DNA from: Dactylosporangium sp. AC04546
Lineage (GTDB): Bacteria; Actinomycetota; Actinomycetes; Mycobacteriales; Micromonosporaceae
Length of the DNA: 64,000 nucleotides
Assembly (NCBI RefSeq): GCF_022095675.1
Contig: NZ_JAHYSG010000068.1
Coordinates: 3,893-67,892, forward strand
Direction: 5' to 3'
The notes under the pieces are model-generated. The model searched no databases and was not told the origin of the DNA. It was given only the letters and a program-made list of their open reading frames with translations. Position 1 is the first letter of the stretch; each line of letters opens with the position of its first letter. Made by a program: the position numbers and the translations under genes. This document shows positions 34,772 to 49,488 of this stretch, piece after piece.

Positions 34772-36067
34772 ATGCGCAAGCTCTGGGCCGCCGTCCTCGC
34801 CGGCGCGATCGCGCTCGCCGCCTGTACCAACAGCGATCACAGCGAGCAGCCGCCCGAGCAAGCGACCGGTCAACCCGGAAGCCCGGAGGAAAGCCCGCCG
34901 ACCAGAACGCCGGTGCAGGTACCGACCGGCCTGAACGCGGCGCCGTTCGACCAGCCGCGATACCTCGACGTGCCCGCCGGCTGGACGGTCGCCGTGTATG
35001 CGCGGATCGACAAGGCCCGCTTCCTGGCCCTGACCCCCAGCGGCGACCTGCTCGTGTCGCAGCCGTCGACCGGAAAGATCCACATCGTCCGCGCCGGCAA
35101 GGTCACCGAGTTCGTCAGCGGCCTGCGCCAGCCCCACGACATGGTGTTCGCCCAGCTCGGCGGCAAGATGTACCTCTTCGTCGCCGAGTCGCACCGCGTG
35201 CAGCGCTACCCGTACACCGACGGCGACCTCAAGGCCCAGCCCGGCCAGGTCGTCGTCGACGGCCTGCCCGACAGCAGCACGCCCGAGCTGCGCGGCAGCT
35301 ACGCGCACCAGCTGAAGAACATCGCCGTGCACGGCGACCGGCTGTACCTCTCGATCGCCAGCACCTGCAACGCGTGCGTGTCCGACACCGTCAGCGACCC
35401 GCGGCGCGCCGCCATCTACACCTACGCCGCCGCGGGCACCAACGCCGAGCGCAAGCTGCTGGCCACCGGCATCCGCAACGCCGAGGGGCTCGCGTTCCGG
35501 CCCGGCACCGACGAGCTGTGGGCCGTCGTGAACAACCGCGACAACACGCTGGTGCCCGACGACCGCGACGTCGACGGCGACGGCCAGTCGGACAAGGGCA
35601 AGCGGATGGCGCAGTTCGTCGACGACTACCCGATCGAGCCGTTCATCAAGGTGCGTGACGGCGGGTTCTACGGCTGGCCGTTCTGCAACCCTGACGGCAA
35701 GGGCGGCTTCGACCGCGACTACGAGCTCAACCGCGACGGTCAGCGGGCCGACTGCGCCAAGGCCGACCCGATCGCGCTCGGCCTCCCCCCGCACAGCGCG
35801 CCGCTCGGCCTGACGTTCTACAGGGACGGTGCGGTCGTGCCGCTGCACGGCTCGTGGAACAGCACCAAGCCGGCCGGCTACAAGGTGCAGTTCATCCCGT
35901 TCGGCAACGGCACTCCGGGCGCCGCGACCGACCTGGTGACCGGCTTCGTCGGGCCCGATGGCAGGTGGTGGGGGCGCCCGGTGGACGCCGCCGCCGACCG
36001 CGACGGATCGCTCCTCGTCAGTGACGACGGCAGCGGTACCGTCTATCGCCTCACGCCTTCGAAATAG
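34772..36067 (+). CDS. PQQ-type soluble sugar dehydrogenase-like lipoprotein
   Basis: A 431-residue lipoprotein. The lipobox LAAC18 is followed by about 35 Pro/Glu-rich residues and then a six-bladed beta-propeller resembling soluble glucose/sorbosone dehydrogenases (YARIDKARFLALTPSGDLLVSQP, GLRQPHDMVF, GIRNAEGLAFRPGTDELWAVVNNRD, PLGLTFYRDGAVVPLHGSWN). Family members use PQQ to oxidise sugars at the cell surface. No PQQ-synthesis gene is in view. Its 3' end overlaps the convergent debranching-type gene by 17 bases. Confidence 0.85.
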   Translation: MRKLWAAVLAGAIALAACTNSDHSEQPPEQATGQPGSPEESPPTRTPVQVPTGLNAAPFDQPRYLDVPAGWTVAVYARIDKARFLALTPSGDLLVSQPSTGKIHIVRAGKVTEFVSGLRQPHDMVFAQLGGKMYLFVAESHRVQRYPYTDGDLKAQPGQVVVDGLPDSSTPELRGSYAHQLKNIAVHGDRLYLSIASTCNACVSDTVSDPRRAAIYTYAAAGTNAERKLLATGIRNAEGLAFRPGTDELWAVVNNRDNTLVPDDRDVDGDGQSDKGKRMAQFVDDYPIEPFIKVRDGGFYGWPFCNPDGKGGFDRDYELNRDGQRADCAKADPIALGLPPHSAPLGLTFYRDGAVVPLHGSWNSTKPAGYKVQFIPFGNGTPGAATDLVTGFVGPDGRWWGRPVDAAADRDGSLLVSDDGSGTVYRLTPSK

Positions 36068-37979
36068 CCGCGGGCGACCCGTCGGCCATCAGGAACACGA
36101 CGCCGACGGGTCCATTGTGGACCGTCAAGGCACCCGCCGCGGTGACGCTCACGTCCAGCTCGCCCTCGCCGATCTTCAGGCCGCGCACCCGGAACGCGCC
36201 GACCGGCGACGGGGTCATGGGGTCGAACGTGATCCGCCCGCCGGGCACGTCGGCGTCCAGGCCGAGCAGGGCCGTCAGGATCGCCGGTCCGGCCGCCGCG
36301 GCCCACGCCTGCGGGCGGCACGAGGCCGGGTAGGGCGTCGGCAGGTCGTCCCCGCCGTACAGCTCGGGCAGCCGGTAGTCGAAGCGCTCACCGGCGTCGA
36401 GCAGCGCGCGGATCACCGCCGCCGCCTCGCCGGCGTGGCCGTCGCGCACGAGGCCGAGCAGCGCGATCGCGGTGTCGTGCGGCCAGACCGAGCCGAGGTG
36501 GTACGAGAGGGCGTTGTACCCGGCCGACGACGGCGCGACGGTCCGGATCCCGAACGGCGAGCGCAGCTCGGCCAGCCGCCCGGCGACGGCGGCGCTCTCG
36601 GCCGCGGAGAGCAGGCCGGTGCCCAGCAGGTGGCCCATGTTCGAGGCGATGCTGTCGACCTGCTGCCCGGTGCCGTCGAGCGCGATCGCCGGGTAGCCCC
36701 CCGGGCACCAGAACGCGGCCCGGAACCGCTCGGCGAGGTCGGCCCCCCACGCGCGCCAGCGATCGCCTCCCTCGCGGCCGAACGACTCCAGCAGCCAGGC
36801 GGCGTCGACGGCGGCCCGGTACGCGTACGCCTGGACCTCACTCAGCGCCAGCGGACCGGCCGCCAGCCGCCCGTCGGCGTGCTGGACCCCGTCGCCGGAG
36901 TCCTTCCAGCCGTGGTTGGTCAGGCCCTTGGCGCTCGACTGGTACGCGATGAAGCCGTCGTGGCCGGCCAGCCACTCCATCGCGCGCTCGACGCTGTCCA
37001 GCAGCGCCTCGACCGCGAGGCGGGACATGCCCCAGCGGTACGCGTCGGCGAGGGTGCTCACGAAGAGCGCGGTCGCGTCGACGGTGCCGTAGTACACCGG
37101 CGGCAGGAAGTAGGTGGCGTCGGGCGGGCGGACCTCGTGCAGGATCTTGCCGGGCTCCTCGTCGGTGTCCGGGTCGTGCTTGACGCCCTGCCGCTTGGCG
37201 AGCGCCCGCAGCGTGCCGGCCGCGACGTCGTGGCCGAGGGGCAGGCCGAGCCGGGCCGACCAGAGCGAGTCGCGGCCGAAGAGGGTGAGGTACCACGGGC
37301 TGCCCGCGGTGTAGTACACGTCCTCGCCGTCGGCCAGCCGCAGTGCGTCGAGGTCCTGCACGCCGGCCCGCACGAGCGCGTCGAGGCGGCGGTCGTCGGC
37401 GCTGACCCGCAGCGTGCTGAAGCGCTTGCTGCGCGCGACCGGCGGCCCGTCGGTGCGCGTGAAGCGCAGCTCGACGGACCAGCTCTCGCGCGGCGGGATG
37501 GTGACCTCCCAGCGGAAGTCGGGCGACGCCGGCACCGACTCGTAGGAGACCGTCATCCCGTCCTCGGCCGCGGCGGCCACGCCGTCCTTGATCGCGCCCA
37601 TGCCCGCGTAGTCGGTCGACGCTTCGACCTCCAGCGACACGGTCAGCGTCTGGTGGGAGGCGTTGGCAAGCGTGATCGTCTCGGTGCCGCCGTTGGGCTC
37701 GACCAGGCGCCGCCGGGTCAGCGTGACCGTCGGGTCGGGGCCGTCGTCGCCCAGCTCCCGCAGCACACCCACGAAGACCGCCGACGACGCACCGGCCCGT
37801 CGAGCCGTCACCGGCACGGGTTCCCGCCCGTCGACCGTCACCACGAGTCGTGAGAGCACCCTGCGGTCGTTGACGTAGAGGCCGTCGGCACCGCCGGTGA
37901 GCTGCCCGGACGGCCCTGACAGCCAGGTGGCCGGGGCGGCGACACACGCCACGTGATCGTGCAGGTAGGGCTGCGCCAT
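36051..37979 (-). CDS. Glycogen-debranching/amylo-alpha-1,6-glucosidase-like protein
   Basis: A 642-residue protein. It has an N-terminal GDE_N-type beta domain (about 1–250, with LTGGADGLYVNDRRVLSRLVV) and a six-hairpin glycosidase-like domain (GSPWYLTLFGRDSLWSARLG, QQVDSIASNMGHLLGTGLL, SVWPHDTAIALLGL). The Asp/Glu-bearing FGRDS and WPHDTA motifs are typical of this debranching family. I chose ATG 37979, which has AAGAGGAAC upstream. It is divergently transcribed from the LacI/ABC sugar operon across two shared operators, so it probably acts on the imported oligosaccharide in the cytoplasm. Confidence 0.85.
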   Translation of the reverse strand: MAQPYLHDHVACVAAPATWLSGPSGQLTGGADGLYVNDRRVLSRLVVTVDGREPVPVTARRAGASSAVFVGVLRELGDDGPDPTVTLTRRRLVEPNGGTETITLANASHQTLTVSLEVEASTDYAGMGAIKDGVAAAAEDGMTVSYESVPASPDFRWEVTIPPRESWSVELRFTRTDGPPVARSKRFSTLRVSADDRRLDALVRAGVQDLDALRLADGEDVYYTAGSPWYLTLFGRDSLWSARLGLPLGHDVAAGTLRALAKRQGVKHDPDTDEEPGKILHEVRPPDATYFLPPVYYGTVDATALFVSTLADAYRWGMSRLAVEALLDSVERAMEWLAGHDGFIAYQSSAKGLTNHGWKDSGDGVQHADGRLAAGPLALSEVQAYAYRAAVDAAWLLESFGREGGDRWRAWGADLAERFRAAFWCPGGYPAIALDGTGQQVDSIASNMGHLLGTGLLSAAESAAVAGRLAELRSPFGIRTVAPSSAGYNALSYHLGSVWPHDTAIALLGLVRDGHAGEAAAVIRALLDAGERFDYRLPELYGGDDLPTPYPASCRPQAWAAAAGPAILTALLGLDADVPGGRITFDPMTPSPVGAFRVRGLKIGEGELDVSVTAAGALTVHNGPVGVVFLMADGSPAAISKA

Positions 37980-38031
37980 GTCGGTTCCTCTTGACAAGCC
38001 TGTTGGCGGGTGAGACCGTCCGGTCATCCTG

Positions 38032-38043
38032 TTGAACGTTCAA
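38032..38043. promoter_or_regulatory. LacI-family operator, copy 1
   Basis: TTGAACGTTCAA, a perfect 12-bp palindrome with a central CG, lies in the divergent gap between the debranching gene and lacI. Its centre is 35 bp from that of copy 2. Confidence 0.8.
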
Positions 38044-38066
38044 AAGGGCTAATGCCACCGCACGAT

Positions 38067-38078
38067 TTGAACGTTCAA
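38067..38078. promoter_or_regulatory. LacI-family operator, copy 2
   Basis: A second identical TTGAACGTTCAA ends 30 bases before the lacI GTG. The pair is expected to repress both divergent transcripts. Confidence 0.8.
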
Positions 38079-38108
38079 CTCGGCACCTTACGGCATTTGG
38101 GAGGGAAT

Positions 38109-39137
38109 GTGCACCCGCCGACCGTCGAGGACGTGGCACGGGCCGCCGGGGTCTCCCGGCAGACCGTCTCCAACGTTCTCAACGCGCCCGAGCGCGTGCG
38201 CCCCGAGACGCGGCTGCGCGTCGAGGCGGCCATCGACCAGCTCGGGTACCGGCCCAACCGGGTCGCGCAGTCGCTGCGTGCGTCCACCTCTCGCATGATC
38301 GGCTATCGCATCGAGCCGATGCACCCGCAGTCCCTCGCCAGCATCCACGACCGGTTCCTGCACGCGCTGGCCGAGGCCGGCCGGGCGGCGGACCACCACC
38401 TGCTGCTGTTCACCGCCAACGACCCCGAGGACGAGGTCGCCAACGTCCAGGCCCTGCACCGGGCCGGCGCGATCGACGGCGTCGTCCTCTACGGCATCTC
38501 GACCGACGACCCGCGCCCGCCCGGGCTGCGCCAGCTGCGCATCCCGTTCGCCGCGTTCGGCCGCACAGGGGCCGACTCGGCCCACCCGTGGGTCGACATC
38601 GACAACGCCGCCGGCACCGCCGCCGCCGTCGAGCACCTGGTGACCCGCGGGCACCAGCGGATCGCGTTCGTCGGCTACCCCGAGGGCGCGGCCGTCGGCG
38701 ACCGGCGGGCCGATGGCTGGCGCACCGCGCTCGACAAGCACGGCCTGCTCGACGGCTCCCGCCACCTCGACCTGCGGGGCGAGGACTCGCTCGCCACCGG
38801 GGCCCGCCTCGGCGAGGCCCTCCTGCAGCACCACACCCCACCCACCGCCGTCGTCGCCGCCACCGACACGCTCGCCGCGGGGGTGCTGCGCGTCGTGCAG
38901 CGCCGCGGCGCGCGCCTCGCGGTGGTCGGCTTCGACGACACCCCGACGGCCGCCGCGCTCGACCTGTCGAGCGTCCGCCAGCCCATCGAGGCCGTAGGGC
39001 ACGCCATGATCCGGGCTCTGCTCGCCTATTCGCCCGACCGGCCGGGGCCTTCGGCTCCCGACCCACATGGTGCTGAACCCACCAGCCAACTGCTGACGCC
39101 CGAACTGATCGTCCGGGCCAGCAGCGCACTGCACTGA
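38109..39137 (+). CDS. LacI-family transcriptional regulator
   Basis: A 342-residue repressor-type protein. PTVEDVARAAGVSRQTVSNVLN is the LacI helix-turn-helix, with the hinge helix at NRVAQSLRAS, followed by a periplasmic-binding-protein-like sensor domain ending in VVGFDDTPTAAAL and SVRQPIEAVG. I chose GTG 38109 directly behind GGGAGG. It is the first gene of the sugar operon, and the two TTGAACGTTCAA sites upstream are its likely autoregulatory operators. Confidence 0.93.
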   Translation: MHPPTVEDVARAAGVSRQTVSNVLNAPERVRPETRLRVEAAIDQLGYRPNRVAQSLRASTSRMIGYRIEPMHPQSLASIHDRFLHALAEAGRAADHHLLLFTANDPEDEVANVQALHRAGAIDGVVLYGISTDDPRPPGLRQLRIPFAAFGRTGADSAHPWVDIDNAAGTAAAVEHLVTRGHQRIAFVGYPEGAAVGDRRADGWRTALDKHGLLDGSRHLDLRGEDSLATGARLGEALLQHHTPPTAVVAATDTLAAGVLRVVQRRGARLAVVGFDDTPTAAALDLSSVRQPIEAVGHAMIRALLAYSPDRPGPSAPDPHGAEPTSQLLTPELIVRASSALH

Positions 39138-39166
39138 AACCTCTCCGACCCCCTGGGAGCGACATC

Positions 39167-40390
39167 ATGAAACGGACACCCCGCCTCCTCGCCGCCGCGT
39201 TGCTACTGGTCGGCCTCGGCGCCACAGCCGCCTGCGGCGACGACGGATCCGGCACCGAGGGCACCGACACCGGCGCCAAACTGACGATGTTCGCGTTCTC
39301 CTCGTCCCCGGCCGAGGACGCGGTACTGCGAAAGGCCGTCGAGGACTACAACAAGCTCGGCCGCAACACCGTCGAGCTGAAGGTGCTGCCGGAGTACGAC
39401 ACCGCGCTCACGACCGCGCTGGCCGGCGGCGAACCGCCGGACGTCTTCTACGTCAACGACAACAAGCTGCCCGACCTGGGCAAGAACGGCGCGCTCGAGC
39501 CGATCGGCGACAAGGTCGAGAACCCGGGCGACTTCTACGACACGCTCAAGCAGTCGTTCACCTACAAGGGGACGTACTACTGCGCGCCGAAGGACTTCTC
39601 CACGCTGCAGTTGGTGTACAACACCGCCGACTTCACCGCCGCCGGCGTCCAGCCGCCCAAGACCTGGGACGAGCTGGCCGCCGCCGCGAAGGCGCTGACC
39701 AAGCCGGGTCACCCCGGGCTGGTGTTCGGTCCCGAGTTCTACCGCTGGGGCGTGTTCATGGCGCAGGCCGGCGCGTGGCCGACCAACGACGACATCACCA
39801 AGATGACGATGGACACGCCCGAGATGAAGGCGGCCCTGCAGTACGTGACCGACAACCACAAGAACGGGAACTTCGGCACGCCGGCGTCGGTCGGCGCCGG
39901 ATGGGGCGGCGAGGCGTTCGGCAAGGGCCTGACGTCGATGACCATCGAGGGCAACTGGATCGTCGGGGCAATGAAGAACGACTTCCCCAACGTGAAGTAC
40001 GCGGTCGCCGAGCTGCCGGCCGGCCCGAAGGGCAAGGGCACGATGTCGTTCTCGGTCTGCTACGGCGTGGCCAAGGCGTCGAAGAACAAGGCCGCCGCGA
40101 CCGACTTCGTCAAGTGGCTCACCTCGCCCGACGAGCAGTTCGCGGTCACCAAGGAGTTCCCGGTGATGCCGTCGCGCAAGTCGCTGGCCGACAAGTGGCT
40201 GGCCGACAAGCCGGAGCTCAAGGCGTTCGTCGCCGGCGGTGACTACGCGAAGAAGTCGGTGTTCGTGCCCGGCTTCTCGACCGCGATCGACACGTTCAAC
40301 GACGGCATCCAGGGCCTGGCCAAGGGCAACAAGCAGGTGGACGAGGTCGTCTCCAGCACCCAGAAGGCCGGGACCGACATCCTCGGCTGA
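39167..40390 (+). CDS. Sugar ABC transporter substrate-binding lipoprotein
   Basis: A 407-residue family-1 solute-binding lipoprotein. The lipobox ATAAC23 is followed by LTMFAFSSSPAEDAVLRKAVEDYN, ALAGGEPPDVFYVND and LEPIGDKV, as in MalE-type proteins. EGNWIVGAMKNDFPNVKYAVAELP is the conserved C-lobe element. The ATG at 39167 is 29 bases after lacI. It delivers a sugar, probably an oligosaccharide, to the two permeases that follow. Confidence 0.93.
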   Translation: MKRTPRLLAAALLLVGLGATAACGDDGSGTEGTDTGAKLTMFAFSSSPAEDAVLRKAVEDYNKLGRNTVELKVLPEYDTALTTALAGGEPPDVFYVNDNKLPDLGKNGALEPIGDKVENPGDFYDTLKQSFTYKGTYYCAPKDFSTLQLVYNTADFTAAGVQPPKTWDELAAAAKALTKPGHPGLVFGPEFYRWGVFMAQAGAWPTNDDITKMTMDTPEMKAALQYVTDNHKNGNFGTPASVGAGWGGEAFGKGLTSMTIEGNWIVGAMKNDFPNVKYAVAELPAGPKGKGTMSFSVCYGVAKASKNKAAATDFVKWLTSPDEQFAVTKEFPVMPSRKSLADKWLADKPELKAFVAGGDYAKKSVFVPGFSTAIDTFNDGIQGLAKGNKQVDEVVSSTQKAGTDILG

Positions 40391-40452
40391 CCGTTTGACC
40401 GGGGCCGCCGCCTCCCCCCTTGGCGGCGGCCCCTACTGGAGGTACCCCCGAA

Positions 40453-41511
40453 ATGACCGCCACCGTTGAGGCGCCGCCGGACGCACCCCCCGGCCGCCGC
40501 CCGAAGTCGCGTATCCACGGCCGGCAGGGCCTGGCCGGCTGGCTGTTCGTCACCCCTGCCCTCATCGGGCTGGGCGCGTTCATGGTCGCGCCGATCCTGC
40601 TGGCGCTGTGGGTGTCGTTCCGCGACTGGAGCGGCCTCAACCCGCTCGCCGACTCCACCAACGCCGGCACCGGCAACTACGCCGACCTGCTCACCGACTC
40701 CGGCGTCGTGCGCGGCGACTTCGCCAAGAGCCTGCGCAACAACCTGTACTACGTGCTCGGCGTCGTCCCCGCGCAGACGGTCCTGGCCTTCCTGCTCGCC
40801 ATTATCGTCAACTCCCGCCTGCTCAAGGGCCGCACGTTCTTCCGCACCGCGTTCTACTTCCCGTCGGTGACGAGTTCGATCGCGGTCGCCTTCATCTTTG
40901 TTTTCCTCTTCAGTCCCGCGGGCGTGGTCAACACCGTGCTGTCCGCGGTACTGCCGGGAAAGGTCGACCTCGTCTGGCTGGACGACTCGGACGGCCTGAT
41001 CCACCTGCTGCTGCGGGCCGTGGGCGTGGACCGGCCGCCGTCCGCCCTGCGCGGCGAGTTCATGGACCTGTCCTGGTGGGACTGGCTGTCCGGGCCGAGC
41101 GTCGCGCTCAGCTCGGTGATGATCCTGGCCACCTGGACCACCACGGGCACGTTCATGCTGATGTTCCTGGCCGGCCTGCAGAACATCCCGGAGGAGCTCG
41201 AGGAGGCCGCGGCGCTCGACGGCGCGTCGGCCCGCCAGCGCTTCTTCACCATCACGCTGCCGCTGCTGAAGCCGACCCTCTTCCTGGTGCTGACGCTGGG
41301 CATCATCGGCACGTGGCAGGTCTTCGACCAGGTGTACGCCATGACGGCCGGCGGCCCGCAGAAGACCACGCTGACGCCCGCCTATCTCGTGTACCGCGAG
41401 GGCTTCCAGAACAGCGCGATGGGCCGCGCGGCGGCGATCGCCTTCGTCGTCTTCGTCATCATCCTGGTCTTCACCGCCGTGCAGCGGCTGGTGCTGCGGA
41501 AGGAGCGCTGA
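40453..41511 (+). CDS. Sugar ABC transporter permease, MalF type
   Basis: A 352-residue inner-membrane protein with about six to seven helices and a cytoplasmic Pro/Arg-rich start. EEAAALDGASARQRFFTITLPLLKP is the EAA loop that contacts the ATPase. It carries an insertion of about 60 residues between transmembrane segments (SDGLIHLLLRAVGVDRPPSA region). ATG 40453 follows GGAGG. It precedes the second permease by a single base. Confidence 0.93.
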   Translation: MTATVEAPPDAPPGRRPKSRIHGRQGLAGWLFVTPALIGLGAFMVAPILLALWVSFRDWSGLNPLADSTNAGTGNYADLLTDSGVVRGDFAKSLRNNLYYVLGVVPAQTVLAFLLAIIVNSRLLKGRTFFRTAFYFPSVTSSIAVAFIFVFLFSPAGVVNTVLSAVLPGKVDLVWLDDSDGLIHLLLRAVGVDRPPSALRGEFMDLSWWDWLSGPSVALSSVMILATWTTTGTFMLMFLAGLQNIPEELEEAAALDGASARQRFFTITLPLLKPTLFLVLTLGIIGTWQVFDQVYAMTAGGPQKTTLTPAYLVYREGFQNSAMGRAAAIAFVVFVIILVFTAVQRLVLRKER

Positions 41512-41512
41512 C

Positions 41513-42337
41513 ATGCGGCGCGCGCTGCGGTACGGCATCCTCATCTTCTTCGCCGTGATCTTCATCTACCCGTTCGTGCTGTCGTTCGCCACCTCGTTCA
41601 AGTCCCGCCCGGAGGTGGCGTCCAGCCCGGTGATCCCGTGGCCGCAGGCGTTCGACACCCGGGCCTGGACCGACGTGCTGGTGCACAGCGACTTTCCCCT
41701 GTGGACGTTCAACTCGATCCTCGTCACCGTGCTGGCGACGCTGGGCCGGGTGTTCCTGGACTCGCTGGCCGGGTACTCGCTGGCCCGCCTGACCTGGCGC
41801 GGCCGGAACCTGGTGTTCGCGGGCGTGGTCTCGGTCCTCGCGGTCCCCCCGATCGTCCTGACCGTCCCGCGCTTCCTGGTGTTGAAGGAGATGAGCCTCC
41901 TCAACTCGTACACGGGCCTGATCCTGCCGCTGGCGGTGGACGCGATGGGCATCTTCCTGATGCGCCAGTTCTTCGCCGAGCTGCCACGGGAGCTGGAGGA
42001 GGCGGCCCGCATCGACGGTGCGTCGATCTTCCAGGCCTACTGGCACGTGGTACTGCCACTGGCCCGCCCGGCCCTGCTGACCCTCACGATCCTGTCGTTC
42101 CAGGGCGTGTGGAACGAGTTCCTGATGCCCCTGATCGTCGTCCGGGCCAGCCCGGAGCACTGGACGCTCCCGTTCGGCCTGTCCACGCTGGGCCGAGGCG
42201 GCGCCGGCGGCCAGTCCTACGACTACCCGGTGATGATGGCGGGATCGATCCTGACCATCATCCCGGTGGCGATCGTCTTCATCATCTTCCAGCGCTTCTT
42301 CGTGCGGGGGGTGGCCCAGACGGGCGTCAAGGGCTGA
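41513..42337 (+). CDS. Sugar ABC transporter permease, MalG type
   Basis: A 274-residue inner-membrane protein with six helices and the EAA motif EEAARIDGASIFQAYWHVVLP. It starts 1 base after the MalF-type gene. No ATP-binding subunit is encoded here, so this importer probably uses a shared MsiK-type ATPase encoded elsewhere, as is common in streptomycetes and their relatives. Confidence 0.93.
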   Translation: MRRALRYGILIFFAVIFIYPFVLSFATSFKSRPEVASSPVIPWPQAFDTRAWTDVLVHSDFPLWTFNSILVTVLATLGRVFLDSLAGYSLARLTWRGRNLVFAGVVSVLAVPPIVLTVPRFLVLKEMSLLNSYTGLILPLAVDAMGIFLMRQFFAELPRELEEAARIDGASIFQAYWHVVLPLARPALLTLTILSFQGVWNEFLMPLIVVRASPEHWTLPFGLSTLGRGGAGGQSYDYPVMMAGSILTIIPVAIVFIIFQRFFVRGVAQTGVKG

Positions 42338-42343
42338 CCGGGG

Positions 42344-43066
42344 TCAGGCGCCGATGACGTTCACCGCCCGTGCCACCACCAGAAGGACCGTCACCAGCGA
42401 CGTCAGGGCCTCGCTCAGCATCAGGAGCTTGGCCCACGTCGACATCGGCATGGTGTCCGTGGGGCTGAAGGCGGTGGCGTTGGTGAACGACACGTACAGG
42501 TAGTCCACGAACGTCGGCTCCCAGTCCCGGTCGGCAAGCTCCGGAACCTGCATCTGGGTGAACAGGAAGTCCGGGTGCGGCGTCCGGCCCTCGGCGCGGG
42601 CCGCCGGGCCGCCGCGGTCGGCCTCCCAGAACCACAGGGCGAAGACGATGACGTTCGTCAGCCAGATCGCGCCGCCCCACAGCAGCAGGTGCTCCGGGGC
42701 GAGGCCACCGTGGTGGAACAGCGCCCGCACCAGCAGCGCCACCGACCACGCGGTCACCAGGCTGAGCACCGCCACCAGGCCGATGCTCAGCGGGCGCAGA
42801 ATCCGGGCCTCGCGGTTGATCCGCAGCGGGTTCACCGCCACCACCGTCACCAGCAGCAGCGACTCCAGCGCGGGCAGCAGCCAGCGCGGTCGTGGGGCCA
42901 GGTCCGGCGGGAGGATCATGTGGATGGCGATCGCCACGGCGATGGCCAGGGCGGCCGGCCAGCGCTGCTCGGCCTCGGTGCGGCGCAACCAGCCGGGCAG
43001 CTGCCCCGGCTTCTTCGGCTGGGGCGGGCCGTTGCCCCGATCCAGCGCGGGCGGTAGGTCGCTCAC
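42344..43066 (-). CDS. Polytopic membrane protein (DUF1345-like), last gene of the radical-SAM operon
   Basis: A 240-residue protein with about five transmembrane helices. The region VDYLYVSFTNATAFSPTDTMPMS followed by a long helix ending VARAVNVIGA resembles the DUF1345/ion-channel-like pattern. I chose GTG 43066, which overlaps the upstream 86-residue gene by four bases (GTGA). It is the last member of a five-gene overlapping operon with the radical SAM and Lgt-like genes. Function unknown. Confidence 0.7.
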   Translation of the reverse strand: MSDLPPALDRGNGPPQPKKPGQLPGWLRRTEAEQRWPAALAIAVAIAIHMILPPDLAPRPRWLLPALESLLLVTVVAVNPLRINREARILRPLSIGLVAVLSLVTAWSVALLVRALFHHGGLAPEHLLLWGGAIWLTNVIVFALWFWEADRGGPAARAEGRTPHPDFLFTQMQVPELADRDWEPTFVDYLYVSFTNATAFSPTDTMPMSTWAKLLMLSEALTSLVTVLLVVARAVNVIGA

Positions 43067-43323
43067 GCCAGCCAACCGTAGACGTGCCAGCCCACTCCCG
43101 CCAGGCCGGCCACCGCCAGTGCCGCCAGGTAGGTCAGGACCAGACGGGTGTCCCGCAGCACGCACTTCGAGCGGGTCAGACCGCGGCGGCGGGCGCGGAG
43201 GTAGCCGGAGAAGCCCAGCACCGCGAAGCCCAGGACCGCCAGCGGGCCCAGCAGCCAGGCCAGCGCCGCGATCGTCGCGTAGACGCACAGGCGCAGCGGG
43301 TCGTAGGGCTGCGGGTCAGCCAC
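43063..43323 (-). CDS. Small two-helix membrane protein
   Basis: An 86-residue protein with two transmembrane segments (YATIAALAWLLGPLAVLGFAV and LVLTYLAALAVAGLAGVGW) separated by a basic loop RARRRGLTRSKC. The GTG at 43323 overlaps the radical SAM gene by 8 bases, and its stop overlaps the next gene by 4. The tight overlaps argue that it is real and part of the same complex or pathway. No family recognised. Confidence 0.7.
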   Translation of the reverse strand: MADPQPYDPLRLCVYATIAALAWLLGPLAVLGFAVLGFSGYLRARRRGLTRSKCVLRDTRLVLTYLAALAVAGLAGVGWHVYGWLA

Positions 43324-44866
43324 GGCGCGGGAGGCGCTGGATCGACAGCAGGGGCCACGCCTGAACCGCGCAGAACGGCGCGCACTGGTCCTGCGACGAG
43401 GCGCTGCGGGTGGCCACGTGGACGCAGCACTGCAGGAGCCGCTCCTCGATCATCGTGTGCATGTCCATGAACGGCTTCACCGTGATGCGCTTGACCCGCT
43501 CGCCGAGCATCTTGCGCAGCCGGTTGCGGCCGCCCGGCAGCGACGACGACACGAGCGTGGTCAGGGTCGAGATGCCGAGGTCGCAGTTCTCGCAGATGTC
43601 CCGCCACAGGTTGCCGACGTCGGGGTGGGACAGCGACGACTGCTCCGACAGCAGCCCGAGCAGCGAGTCCTTGACCGCGGTGCGCAGGGCCGCGGGCAGC
43701 TGGACGTCGGCGATCCGGTTGGCCACCAGGTCCGGCGCCAGGTCGAGGAACGACAGCAGGCGGTCGTGGCCGATGAGCTTGGTCATCGACTGCCACTGGC
43801 CGGCATCGTCGCGCAGGAGGTAGCCCACCGAGCAGCAGTGCGGGTGCGAGCACGGCAGCGCCGTGAGGTCGCGCCAGGTGACCAGGTCGCCGGTCTGCGG
43901 GCCGAGCCGGGCCAGCACGCCGGTGTGGGTCAGCCGGTCCACCGGGTCGATCGGGCCCGAACGACCCGAACCGAACTGCGGCTGCAGCGAGACCCCGCCG
44001 ACGTAGGGCGTGTCGAGCGCCCGCTTCACGACCGCGCCGATCTCGTCGTCGTTGACGCCGAGCGCGCAGGTCATGGTGAGGGTGGTGAAGATGCCGCGGG
44101 CGGAGAGCCGGTCGATCGCCTGCTCCTTGAGCCGGCGCAGGTCGGCGCCGCGGTGGTGCCGGGAGGCGCGCTCGGTCACGCCGTCGTACTGGAGGTACAC
44201 CTCCACCCGCTCCCGGTGCGCCGTGAGGAGGTCGAGCAGCGCGTCGTCGCGGGCGATCCGCACGCCGTTGGTGTTGACCAGGATCCGCACCACGTTGCGC
44301 TCCGAGACCTCGCGCAGGAGCTCCGGGAGGTGGGGGTACAGCGTGGGCTCGCCGCCGGAGAGCATCAGCACGTCGATGCGGCCGTTCTCCCGGGACAGCT
44401 TGGTGTCGACGCTCGCCAGCACGTCGGCCAGCGGTACGACGCCTTCGATGGCCGGAGACGAGTCCGTGAAGCAGGTGGGGCACTTCAGGTTGCAGCTGTC
44501 GGTCAGGTCGGCCAGCAGGATGCAGGTGTGCTGCGTCTGCATCTCCGGCAGCCCGTCAAGATACGCCGACGGGACCGGGGCGAAGTTGCCGGCCAGGTCC
44601 GGCACGTGCGTCTTGGTGGGCGCGGTCCACTGCTCGAGGTACCGCAGAATCTCCGGCTCCTCGTCGTAGAGGGTCCGCACGAGCCCGTGGCCGGGGCAGC
44701 CGCGCTCGAGCCAGATCCGCCCGTCGCGCTCGGCGAGCCAGCCCGACAGCCGCTGGACCGTCTCCAGTGGACGGTCCGGCCGTTCGTCGTGGCAGTGCGG
44801 GCAGAAGGCGTTGACGTAGCGGTGGATGCGGTCCCCGCGCAGGGGCATGCCCGTGTCGGTGCTCAT
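43316..44866 (-). CDS. Cysteine-rich radical SAM enzyme resembling archaeal tetraether synthase (Tes/MJ0619 group)
   Basis: A 516-residue protein. An N-terminal zinc/rubredoxin-like region has C22PHC25 and C57PGH. The radical SAM cluster motif is C125NLKC129PTC132, followed by GGEP at 171–174. C-terminal cysteines (C339, C344/C345, C425, C428, C480/C481, C495, C499) can hold auxiliary Fe-S clusters. Length and this layout resemble archaeal Tes (MJ0619), which joins lipid tails by C–C bonds. That resemblance is my recognition, not a search result. ATG 44866 overlaps the upstream membrane gene (ATGA). Lipid-related membrane neighbours strengthen the idea of a lipid substrate. Confidence 0.75.
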   Translation of the reverse strand: MSTDTGMPLRGDRIHRYVNAFCPHCHDERPDRPLETVQRLSGWLAERDGRIWLERGCPGHGLVRTLYDEEPEILRYLEQWTAPTKTHVPDLAGNFAPVPSAYLDGLPEMQTQHTCILLADLTDSCNLKCPTCFTDSSPAIEGVVPLADVLASVDTKLSRENGRIDVLMLSGGEPTLYPHLPELLREVSERNVVRILVNTNGVRIARDDALLDLLTAHRERVEVYLQYDGVTERASRHHRGADLRRLKEQAIDRLSARGIFTTLTMTCALGVNDDEIGAVVKRALDTPYVGGVSLQPQFGSGRSGPIDPVDRLTHTGVLARLGPQTGDLVTWRDLTALPCSHPHCCSVGYLLRDDAGQWQSMTKLIGHDRLLSFLDLAPDLVANRIADVQLPAALRTAVKDSLLGLLSEQSSLSHPDVGNLWRDICENCDLGISTLTTLVSSSLPGGRNRLRKMLGERVKRITVKPFMDMHTMIEERLLQCCVHVATRSASSQDQCAPFCAVQAWPLLSIQRLPRRG

Positions 44867-45246
44867 AGCGTTCCCGTCTGGCTGTTGACGATGGCGATGC
44901 AGACGCCGATCCCGGCGATCGGGAAGACCAGCACGCTCACCGCCCAGCCGATGATGAGGCCGAGGCCGATCCCGCGGTCCTTCTGGACGATCCAGATGAT
45001 GCCGAAGGTCAGGCAGGCGAGGAAGAGCAGGATCTGCAGCAGGATCTCGGCGTAGACCCCGAACAGGGCGTTCTCGCTGTTGTCGGACATGGCGAAGAGG
45101 AACGTGATCAGCACGCCGAGCCCGATCACCAGGACCTGGCCGAGCGCGGCCAGGCCGATGCCGGCGAACACCTTCCGGCCGCGGATCGGCCGCTCTGGGC
45201 CGGACGGCGGCGGAGGCGGCGGTGGCGGGACCGTCCACTCGTTCAT
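44863..45246 (-). CDS. Small membrane protein with poly-proline N-terminus
   Basis: A 127-residue protein. MNEWTVPPPPPPPPSGPERP is a proline-rich cytoplasmic start, followed by about three transmembrane helices (FAGIGLAALGQVLVIGLGVL, ILLQILLFLACLTFGIIWI, GLGLIIGWAVSVLVFPIAG). I chose ATG 45246 rather than an upstream in-frame ATG with poor coding character. Its stop overlaps the radical SAM start (ATGA). Probably a membrane partner or anchor for the radical SAM enzyme; unproven. Confidence 0.75.
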   Translation of the reverse strand: MNEWTVPPPPPPPPSGPERPIRGRKVFAGIGLAALGQVLVIGLGVLITFLFAMSDNSENALFGVYAEILLQILLFLACLTFGIIWIVQKDRGIGLGLIIGWAVSVLVFPIAGIGVCIAIVNSQTGTL

Positions 45247-45328
45247 GCGTCCTCCGCTCCGCTCCGGCCGCCTGAACCCCACCCTGAGCCCACGATGAGT
45301 GGCCTCCTCCGCTTCGCTCCGGAACCCC

Positions 45329-46093
45329 TCATGTCGTGACACCTTCCGCGCGTCGGGAGCGCCAGGCCAGCCGGGCCGCGAGCAGCGGCAGGCAGGCCAG
45401 CAGGAACAACTGCGAGCGGGTCAGGCCCACCCACACGACCTCGTTGCCGCGGACGAACTCGACCCCGAACCGGAACGCGGCGTAGCCGGCGAGGTACAGC
45501 GTGAACAGGCGGCCCGGCGTGGTGATCCGCTTGCGCAGTGCGAGCAGCGCGGCGAACGCGGCCGCGTGAAAGAGGATCTCGTAGGCGAATGACGGATGCA
45601 GGGGTACACCGGCCGGAACATGCATCGCGGCGGCCTGCTCCGCGTCCAGCGTCACGCCCCAGGGCAGTCCCGTGGGTGTGCCCGGCGGCTCGGCGAAGAA
45701 GCAGCCCAGCCGCCCCACCGCCATGCCGAGCGCGACCGCCGGGGCGAAGAGATCGCCGGTCTTGTGCGGGTAGCCGGCGAGCCGCTTCGCCAGGAGCGCG
45801 CCCACGTAGGCGCCGACGAGGCCGGACAGGATGCTGCGGTTGCCGTACGCCCACTGCTCGAGCAGCGACGCGTTGTCCCGCGGGTCGAGGTGCTGCGCCC
45901 ACGTGCCGAGCCGGGCGAAGAGCGCGCCGCCGGCGAGCGCGCCGGCCAGCACGTACCAGAGCCGTTCGTCCTGCGCCTGCCGCCGGCGGACCTCCCACAG
46001 GAAGACCAGGGCGGCGACCCCGATGCCAAGGGCCACGAACACGTCGTGGGTCAGGATCGCCACCGGACCGAACCGAGCGATCACCGGGTGCAC
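45329..46093 (-). CDS. Lgt-family (prolipoprotein diacylglyceryl transferase-like) membrane protein with altered active site
   Basis: A 254-residue protein with about seven transmembrane helices and the Lgt framework: GRLGCFFAEPPGTPTGLPWGV, HPSFAYE and FRFGVEFVRGNE. Arg128, Arg208 and Glu212 match E. coli Arg143, Arg239 and Glu243. However, the position of essential Asn146 is Cys131, and the essential His103 region (SILSGLVGAYVG) has no histidine. A GTG start is at 46093. It heads the operon with the radical SAM gene, 82 bases upstream of the poly-proline membrane protein. It is unlikely to be the housekeeping Lgt and may modify a lipid or lipoprotein differently. Confidence 0.8.
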   Translation of the reverse strand: MHPVIARFGPVAILTHDVFVALGIGVAALVFLWEVRRRQAQDERLWYVLAGALAGGALFARLGTWAQHLDPRDNASLLEQWAYGNRSILSGLVGAYVGALLAKRLAGYPHKTGDLFAPAVALGMAVGRLGCFFAEPPGTPTGLPWGVTLDAEQAAAMHVPAGVPLHPSFAYEILFHAAAFAALLALRKRITTPGRLFTLYLAGYAAFRFGVEFVRGNEVVWVGLTRSQLFLLACLPLLAARLAWRSRRAEGVTT

Positions 46094-47886: not shown

Positions 47887-49488
47887 TCAGACGCGCACCT
47901 GGTGCGCGATGCCGTAGCTGAGCGCGTCGACGAGCGCCTGCCAGCTCGCCTCCACCACGTTCTCGTGGACGCCGACGGTGGTCCAGTCCTCGCCGGCCGA
48001 CCGGGTCTCGACCAGCACCCGCGTGATCGCGCCGGTGCCGTGGCTGCCCTCCAGGATGCGGACCTTGTAGTCGGCCAGCTCGAACCGGGTCAGCTCAGGG
48101 TAGTGCCGGGCCAGCGCGACCCGCAGCGCCTCGTCGAGGGCGTTGACGGGGCCGTTGCCCTCGGCGGTGGCGATCACGCGCTCGCCGCGCACGCGGACCT
48201 TCACGGTGGCCTCGGAGACGACCGCGCCGTCCTCGCGGTGTTCGACGATCACGCGGTACGACTCCAGGGCGAACGGCCGGGGCAGCGCGCCCTCGGCGAG
48301 CTCGGAGCGCGCCAGCAGCTCGAAGGAGGCGTCGGCGGCCTCGAACGACCAGCCGCGGGCCTCCAGCTCCTTGACCCGGTTGGTGACCCGGGTGAGCGCC
48401 TCCGGATGGCCGGCCAGGTCGACGCCGAGCTCGCGTGCCTTGAGCTCGATGCTGGCCCGGCCGGCCATCTCGGTGACCAGGATCCGCATGTCGTTGCCCA
48501 CGACGACCGGGTCGATGTGGTTGTAGAGCACGGGATCCACTTTGATCGCGCTCGCGTGCAGGCCCGCCTTGTGAGCGAACGCTGACGACCCGACGTAGGC
48601 CTGGTGGGTGTCGGGTGCGATGTTGGCGATCTCGGCGATGGAGTGCGAGACGCGCACCATCTGCTCGACGCAGCCGTCCGGTAGGACGGGCATACCGAGC
48701 TTGAGCTGAAGGTTGCCGACGACGGCGAAGAGGTCGGCGTTGCCGGGGCGCTCGCCGTAGCCGTTCGCGGTGCACTGGAAGTGCGGCACGCCGGCCTCGA
48801 CGGCGGCGACGGTGTTGGCGACGGCGCAGGACGTGTCGTTCTGGCAGTGGATGCCGAGCCGGGCGACGGCCTCCTCGGGCGTCACGCCGAGCGCCACCGC
48901 GAGGCGCTCGCGGACCTCGCCGACCGTGCGGGTGATCAGCGACGGCAGCATCCCGCCGTTCGTGTCGCACATGACGGCGGCCTCGGCGCCCGCCTCCAGG
49001 GCGGCCAGGGCGACGCTCGTCGTGTACTGCGGGTCGAAGCGGTACCCGTCGAAGAAGTGCTCGCAGTCGAGGAAGACGCGGCGGCCCTCGCTCACGAAGT
49101 ACGCCACCGTGTCGCGGACCATCGCGAGGTTCTCCTCGGCGGTCGTGCGCAGCGCCCGCTCGACGTGGCGCAGGTCGGACTTCGCGACCAGGGTCACGGC
49201 CGGCGTCTCGGCCTCGAGCAGCGCGCGGACCTGCGGGTCGTCCTGCACCCGGACGCCGGCCTTGCGGGTCGCGCCGAACGCGACGAAGACGGCGTGTCTC
49301 AGGTTGAGCTCGGTGCGCGCCCGGCGGAAGAACTCGGTGTCCTTCGGCATGGCCCCCGGCCACCCGCCCTCGATGAACCCGACGCCGAACTCGTCCAGCA
49401 GCCGCGCGACGGCCAGCTTGTCGACCACCGAGTAGCTGATCGCCTCACGCTGAGCCCCATCGCGCAGCGTCGTGTCGTACACCTGCAT
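47887..49488 (-). CDS. cimA: (R)-citramalate synthase
   Basis: A 533-residue enzyme that condenses pyruvate with acetyl-CoA to citramalate, opening the threonine-independent route to 2-oxobutyrate and isoleucine. DTTLRDGAQ and FIEGGWPGAMPKD are the catalytic-barrel motifs. GIHCQNDTSCAVANT and CTANGYGERPGNADL are family signatures, and the C-terminal about 130 residues form the regulatory LeuA-dimer domain. The products feed LeuCD and LeuB, both in this window. An attenuator-type leader with peptide lies upstream. The EGGWPGAMPKD variant favours citramalate synthase over isopropylmalate synthase. Confidence 0.92.
   Translation of the reverse strand: MQVYDTTLRDGAQREAISYSVVDKLAVARLLDEFGVGFIEGGWPGAMPKDTEFFRRARTELNLRHAVFVAFGATRKAGVRVQDDPQVRALLEAETPAVTLVAKSDLRHVERALRTTAEENLAMVRDTVAYFVSEGRRVFLDCEHFFDGYRFDPQYTTSVALAALEAGAEAAVMCDTNGGMLPSLITRTVGEVRERLAVALGVTPEEAVARLGIHCQNDTSCAVANTVAAVEAGVPHFQCTANGYGERPGNADLFAVVGNLQLKLGMPVLPDGCVEQMVRVSHSIAEIANIAPDTHQAYVGSSAFAHKAGLHASAIKVDPVLYNHIDPVVVGNDMRILVTEMAGRASIELKARELGVDLAGHPEALTRVTNRVKELEARGWSFEAADASFELLARSELAEGALPRPFALESYRVIVEHREDGAVVSEATVKVRVRGERVIATAEGNGPVNALDEALRVALARHYPELTRFELADYKVRILEGSHGTGAITRVLVETRSAGEDWTTVGVHENVVEASWQALVDALSYGIAHQVRV

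Follow-up and report, generated by a model that had tools for sequence, protein, structure and literature searches.

The operon described here lies in a 64,000-nucleotide stretch of contig NZ_JAHYSG010000068.1 of Dactylosporangium sp. AC04546 (the window), where five open reading frames occupy positions 42344-46093 of the minus strand and are transcribed in the order A-B-C-D-E. It is best explained as a probable lipid-modification operon of actinobacteria with a two-gene core, A encoding an Lgt-like membrane protein and C a radical S-adenosylmethionine (SAM) protein of the Tes superfamily, accompanied by the accessory membrane proteins D, B or both. The protein families are known, and the A-C pairing and the clade appear to be undescribed. 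As a tentative reading, which we rate slightly short of an even chance, C would carry out Tes-like radical chemistry on a membrane-lipid acyl chain, and A would use phosphatidylglycerol (PG), possibly modified, to decorate a dedicated acceptor, namely B in the class Actinomycetes. The features of the operon, all on the minus strand, are listed below.

45329..46093, minus strand: A, Lgt-like membrane protein of 254 residues with a GTG start; altered Lgt subfamily with Y26H, N146C and H103L, keeping R143, R239 and E151.
44863..45246, minus strand: B, 127 residues, poly-Pro N-terminus, three predicted transmembrane (TM) helices and a near-invariant Cys closing the third; sequence in the window AGIGVCIAIVNSQTGTL.
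43316..44866, minus strand: C, Tes-superfamily radical SAM protein of 516 residues; AF2 model with pLDDT 85.7, fold match 7tom/7tol.
44687..44803, minus strand: rubredoxin-like metal site of C, C22-x2-C25 ... C57-x2-H60, aligned to MJ0619 C9, C12, C33 and H36.
44471..44494, minus strand: radical SAM cluster motif of C, CNLKCPTC (C125, C129, C132), the three cysteines being present in 244/244 orthologs.
43370..43852, minus strand: putative C-terminal auxiliary cluster region of C, with C344, C480 and C499 common with Tes, the extra cysteines C339, C345, C425, C428, C481 and C495, and K464 replacing Met439.
43063..43323, minus strand: D, membrane protein of 86 residues with conserved DPLRLC and SxCxLxD motifs, matched at 71/128 ortholog loci.
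42344..43066, minus strand: E, membrane protein of 240 residues with weak DUF1345 similarity; overlaps D in the window and stands outside the conserved unit.

The coordinates confirmed a first-pass annotation of the same DNA, which had described five minus-strand genes with the last four overlapping by 4-8 bases. B and C share 4 bases (ATGA), C and D share 8, and D and E share 4 (GTGA), while a gap of 82 bases separates A from B.

Linkage and co-inheritance of A and C

The distribution of C was assessed in three genome samples, nested one within the other. A C ortholog occurred in 19 of 150 genomes of the family (77-100% identity), in 24 of 394 of the class (at least 67% identity; 13 more genomes had just a relative of about 30%) and in 10 of 396 of the phylum (56-73% identity not counting the own genome; two of the orthologs were fragmented), with 11 further phylum genomes having distant relatives only. 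A scan of named GTDB representatives returned 513 confirmed stretches, which are not necessarily distinct genes as one gene can yield two of them. The 80 best loci were kept and came from Mycolicibacterium, Mycobacterium, Nocardia, Nonomuraea, Microbispora, Planomonospora, Planobispora, Microtetraspora and their kin, a list biased to mycobacteria and kin because the loci were taken from the best matches.

The window, the orthologs of the three samples and the 80 named loci gave 128 ortholog loci. The number of independent genomes is lower, as ten C sequences are each represented by two loci, leaving 118 distinct ones, and the loci L137 and L138 are two halves of one C gene. In 126 of the 128 loci (116 of 118 after removal of duplicates) A and C share a strand and A is the upstream gene, the matched parts being 51 to 1060 bases apart; at the two loci without A (L137 and L192) the contig ends right beside C. 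B was recognised in 120 of the 128 loci; in 99 of these A and C flank it, in 18 it is upstream of A and in the other 3 it has a different position. D was recognised in 71 loci. The A, B and D models were themselves derived from these loci, so that B and D may be undercounted at loci far from the window; a B match at L129 (E 0.00029) lay under the threshold used for these counts. Among the 80 named loci A was found in 79, B in 80 and D in 33. D was present at the deep loci L133-L137, where B was not recognised, and mycobacterial loci always had B and mostly not D. From this pattern we infer that A-C is the ancestral core, that D is old and that B is typical of the class Actinomycetes.

Co-inheritance was then evaluated in 118 genomes of the mycobacterial genus around genome G152, with E values of 1e-100 or better for C and 1e-50 or better for A. 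C was found in 31 genomes and A in 33, and 31/31 genomes with C had both genes (Fisher's exact p = 2e-26, kinship ignored). The two A-only genomes were G905, a 70% complete assembly, and G978, a fragment containing a stop codon. Pairwise divergence over 119 loci correlated between A and C (r 0.885) and between B and C (r 0.863), with label shuffles reaching at most 0.153 and 0.137 respectively; kinship alone accounts for part of both correlations. Conserved linkage of the radical SAM and Lgt-like genes in relatives, which the first-pass annotation had set as a check on its own proposal, was thus confirmed by both the 126/128 loci and the 31/31 genomes.

In the same scans, the A match of genome G307 was reported with one TGA, and at G963:C1:4266432-4267938 C was split in two overlapping frames beside a stop-free A match, reflecting either decay or an assembly error.

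The operon was also detected on plasmids of M. avium (pS2b, L230) and M. branderi (pJCM12687, L231), so that it can travel as a unit. Both plasmid operons have two tandem hypothetical genes with the B motif between A and C. A transposase gene lies close to each of them, of IS110 type in L230 and of IS200/IS605 type in L231. A phage origin was considered and rejected, a search of 50,697 phage records having returned no match to C (E limit 1e-10) or to one M. branderi B protein (E limit 1).

An ordinary second Lgt joined to an unrelated radical SAM gene by chance, or by general operon packing, would be compatible with the two other Lgt genes of the own genome, which show that extra copies occur, and with the travel of the operon on plasmids. 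The persistence of A-C at nearly all loci and in all C-bearing genomes of the genus, together with the correlated divergence, contradicts this explanation, as do the neighbours beyond A-B-C-D, which differed by eye among ten listed loci; we therefore regard it as scarcely credible.

Characterization of the radical SAM protein C

The motifs indicated by the first-pass annotation were all found in C, i.e., CNLKCPTC, the N-terminal CPHC and CPGH and at least nine C-terminal cysteines, nine being counted beyond residue 338 (339, 344, 345, 425, 428, 480, 481, 495 and 499). In the rubredoxin-type site, C22 and C25 were present in 243/243 orthologs with a letter there and C57 and H60 in 244/244; the 244 C sequences, like the 246 A sequences used below, are partly redundant, some proteins being identical to those of the loci. 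C344, C480 and C499 were invariant across an alignment of 50 orthologs and 30 Tes sequences and, judging from this alignment, are the probable ligands of a C-terminal [4Fe-4S] cluster.

The overall fold of the AF2 model matched that of archaeal Tes/GDGT-MAS (MJ0619; 7TOL, 7TOM). The best structural match by far was thus to a lipid enzyme; the SPASM-type maturases SkfB and SuiB appeared among the secondary matches. The likeness to Tes extends to near full-length homology, the rubredoxin site, the CX3CX2C motif, the residues F106, R210, Q268 and R275 and the three C-terminal cluster cysteines. However, the ligands of the N-terminal [4Fe-4S] cluster (Tes C73, C77 and C80) were found in 0/17 C orthologs, whereas they were kept in 16/16 Tes and in 21/21 rows of actinobacterial paralogs. 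In addition, Met439 of Tes is replaced by Lys in 244/244 C orthologs, Tyr459 by Val or Ala in 17/17 and S271 by Phe, and C differs by its extra cysteines and its Lgt-like partner. Met439 and Tyr459 were dispensable for GDGT-MAS activity in mutants (PMC9433317).

C scored 147 bits against the Tes/GDGT-MAS equivalog NF045702 (cut-off 450 bits) and 190.5 bits against the model of the TrsS radical SAM (seleno)proteins, NF045646 (cut-off 490 bits), the latter being its best NCBIfam score. Assignment of C to either family was rejected, as both scores fell below the cut-offs and sites were lost. The comparison with archaeal Tes made in the first-pass annotation therefore holds for the fold, the rubredoxin site, the radical SAM motif and the C-terminal cluster cysteines, but not for the N-terminal cluster or the equivalog score. 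The actinobacterial TrsS-like paralogs, themselves below both cut-offs, share with C the rubredoxin site, the radical SAM motif and the C-terminal cluster cysteines, but they keep the N-terminal cluster and had no A, B, D or E at 20/20 loci. A defence system was also considered and rejected, since PADLOC yielded just weak viperin matches via the common radical SAM core (best 37.7 bits).

Two loci of relatives carried other arrangements. In a plasmid of M. vanbaalenii (L232, 5230-10270) a TrsS-like paralog lies with genes annotated as methyltransferase, CcdA, disulfide oxidoreductase and a second radical SAM protein, a different cassette. Locus L144 (G868:C57, 1981-5373) of one actinobacterial genome contains two Tes-superfamily genes that lie in tandem and have diverged strongly; one has Tyr at the Tyr459 position, and in the other the rubredoxin His is changed to Lys, R210 to Ala and C456 to Gly.

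The extra conserved cysteines 339, 345, 425, 428, 481 and 495 and the Lys at the labile Met position would also fit an enzyme that inserts sulfur, in which a Tes-type S-C intermediate would be released as a thiolated lipid or thioether and the extra cysteines would form a second cluster. GDGT-MAS is reported to build up a lipid bearing one extra sulfur when SAM is limiting (PMC9433317). By eye the unit showed no gene for a sulfur donor, and we consider sulfur insertion quite improbable.

Tes homologs are not restricted to archaea: 456 of them have been reported in bacteria (PMC8941075), as have Mss-based membrane-spanning lipids (PMC13274423, PMC11868695), and 17 out of 146 metagenome-assembled genomes of actinobacteria were reported to have Mss homologs (PMC11868695). 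Mss and Tes homologs of bacteria are among the closest known systems, PMC13274423 attributing to them a Tes-like catalytic architecture and modelled phospholipid binding. Among open-licence PubMed Central papers, none was found that describes the pairing of an Lgt-like gene with a clade of the Tes superfamily, in agreement with the first-pass annotation, which knew of no bacterial system with such a gene set; a single mention in a graspetide paper (PMC8939145) was unrelated.

Characterization of the Lgt-like protein A

A carries the PF01790 LGT domain and the predicted Lgt fold, but it scored 77.2 bits against the Lgt equivalog TIGR00544, whose cut-off is 118.9. The source genome (13.0 Mb, 348 contigs, reported completeness 99.75%) has two other Lgt genes scoring 228 and 206 bits for PF01790 against 112 for A, which marks A as an extra copy; as the genome is reported to be 11.5% contaminated, one of the two may be foreign. 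A was compared with canonical Lgt (E. coli 5AZB and the own genome's L002 alone, L001 being left out). The PG-binding R143 and R239 were kept in 246/246 sequences, and E151, G154, Y235 and R246 were likewise invariant (246/246). Conversely, Y26 was replaced by His in 245/245 sequences, H103 by Leu in 239/246 and N146 by Cys in 246/246; A further differs by R73A and by its length, 254 residues versus a 300-residue PDB chain. The earlier assignment of A to the Lgt family thus stands as regards domain, fold and PG-binding arginines, not as regards the equivalog and the three replaced residues.

PMC13251419 states that Y26, N146 and H103 are required in E. coli Lgt and that H103 varies in other Lgts. 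The same paper describes M. smegmatis MSMEG_5408, a second Lgt, with the Y26H and N146C changes seen in A and a presumed low Lgt activity. We retained the link to MSMEG_5408 as a lead only, since M. smegmatis falls outside the best 80 of the 513 stretches and a single sentence on this protein was found in print. The neighbouring tag MSMEG_5406 is called hypothetical in the one paper that has it.

These replacements, next to invariant PG-phosphate-binding arginines, suggest an alternative in which A transfers nothing and would instead bind PG and present it to C, as the lipid-binding subunit of one phospholipid-chain-modifying enzyme; the persistence of the A-C pairing where B is not recognised is in its favour. 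Nevertheless, the invariance of E151, G154, Y235 and R246 goes beyond any obvious need of binding only, and Lgt works on the outer side of the membrane whereas Tes is a cytoplasmic enzyme. We hold this alternative to be unlikely, though of some weight.

The membrane proteins B, D and E

A simple hydropathy rule gave three TM helices in 134/134 B sequences, confirming the earlier description of a poly-Pro protein with three helices. The mean number of Lys and Arg residues was 1.66 at the N-terminus and 2.43 in the loop between helices 2 and 3, placing both inside, and 0.50 in the other loop and 0.20 in the tail, placing these outside; B is therefore predicted to have an N-in/C-out topology with its Cys at the outer face. 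Helix 3 mostly ends in a motif like GLMIGWAL-SI-TAGFCTG-NP-LY. The aligned Cys was present in 133/134 sequences, the sole highly conserved residue apart from Gly, Trp, Ala, Leu and Pro, and the last Cys lay 6 to 17 residues before the C-terminus in 132/134. In place and direction this Cys motif resembles a lipoprotein signal peptide.

With a mean identity of 38.9%, B was the most variable member of the unit (A 68.7, D 70.9 and C 78.7%), and two B matches occurred at 14 of 120 loci. A small, fast-evolving and sometimes duplicated protein with a conserved Cys-containing C-terminal motif, encoded beside a radical SAM gene whose product has SkfB and SuiB among its secondary fold matches, could itself be the substrate. 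C would then modify a protein or peptide such as B, as in ribosomal peptide maturation, and A would just anchor or present it. The Cys of B is however predicted outside, whereas C has by eye no obvious signal sequence and is expected to hold oxygen-sensitive clusters; B was not recognised at the deepest A-C loci, and the lipid enzyme remains by far the top structural match of C. We consider peptide modification distinctly unlikely.

D has two cysteines invariant in 71/71 sequences. Neither B nor D had a Pfam family over the cut-off; the weak matches of B (Herpes_LMP1, Mycobacteriophage_TM) and that of E to DUF1345 (17 bits) were below it and were not used. E was recognised at 5 of 7 same-genus loci, the window included, lay more than 4 kb from C at L037 and L038, and was found at 0/80 named loci. 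E is a bystander and no part of the conserved unit. The five-gene operon of the first-pass annotation is hence upheld in its A-C linkage, but not in its inclusion of E, which was observed at loci of this genus alone.

Proposed function

Starting from the families, linkage, co-inheritance and residues described above, and from the predicted Tes and Lgt folds, we would propose the following substrate, product, order of steps and acceptor. At the cytoplasmic face, C would generate a 5'-deoxyadenosyl radical that takes a hydrogen from an unactivated fatty-acyl carbon of a membrane lipid, probably PG. The C-terminal [4Fe-4S] cluster would retain the chain in the form of an S-C intermediate, like the one proposed for Tes, and the chain would leave C-C coupled or otherwise modified. 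A would then use PG, perhaps in the modified form, as diglyceride donor to an acceptor unserved by ordinary Lgt, for which the outer-face cysteine of B would be the best candidate in the class Actinomycetes.

A more specific version, a new lipoprotein anchor, appears improbable. Here C would couple the tails of a PG-derived diglyceride, either intramolecularly or with those of a second lipid on the far side of the membrane, and A would attach the product to the outer-face Cys of B via an atypical lipobox, most commonly TAGFCTG.

Several observations weigh against the transfer of a Tes-type product to B. As A is devoid of Y26, N146 and H103, it may not be a transferase. The reaction of C may differ from that of Tes because the N-terminal auxiliary cluster is missing and extra cysteines are present. 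The canonical Gly, Ala or Ser that a lipobox needs before the Cys was found in at most 12/134 B sequences. B was not recognised at 8 of the 128 loci, including the deepest (L133-L138), where A-C-D or A-C suffices, and its position upstream of A rather than between A and C in 18 of the 128 fits the proposal poorly. To our knowledge, no tail-coupled lipid is known from cultured actinomycetes. Finally, Mss has been proposed to act together with Ger/PlsA in making ether forms, and PF09989, which we take to be part of PlsA/Ger and which was the sole domain searched for these proteins, was absent from the own genome. The own-genome matches of C were limited to C itself and two weak ones (E about 1e-6); ether-type tetraethers are thus unlikely in the source organism. 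Overall, the interpretation originally given to the gene set, an unusual membrane lipid or a modified lipoprotein anchor, is partly supported.

Genomic context

A promoter scan with the sigma-70 consensus gave no match, and two overlapping terminator-like sites were found within gene A versus 0.6 expected. On the plus strand at 38010-42337, the window carries genes for a LacI-type regulator, a sugar-binding protein and two permeases, with a glucosidase-like gene adjoining on the minus strand (36051-38027); by eye the region 36051-42337 resembles a common cluster for ABC-type sugar transport. At 47887-49488, minus strand, lies a gene for a 533-residue protein resembling by eye (R)-citramalate synthase, a match to which was found near the operon in 11 of 18 same-family relatives. 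In one other genome (L114, G450:C1, 4658-11439) A-C-D comes directly after genes whose N-termini resemble by eye those of rpsB, tsf, pyrH, frr and cdsA (phosphatidate cytidylyltransferase), thus providing one case of a lipid-synthesis gene as operon neighbour.

Significance

Lipids coupled tail to tail are known in archaea and in certain bacteria, a good many of which are anaerobes. With a clade of the Tes superfamily linked to a re-tooled Lgt in actinomycetes, for example Nonomuraea, Microbispora, Nocardia and mycobacteria, this chemistry would reach new organisms, and the A-C pairing could link the fields of membrane-spanning lipids and lipoprotein anchoring. It would also give a role to extra "Lgt" genes that are annotated as diacylglyceryl transferases yet are devoid of residues required in E. 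coli Lgt. A and C constitute a defined two-gene core for probing the function of bacterial Tes homologs, and their pairing in many actinobacteria points to an undescribed modification of a membrane lipid or a lipid anchor.

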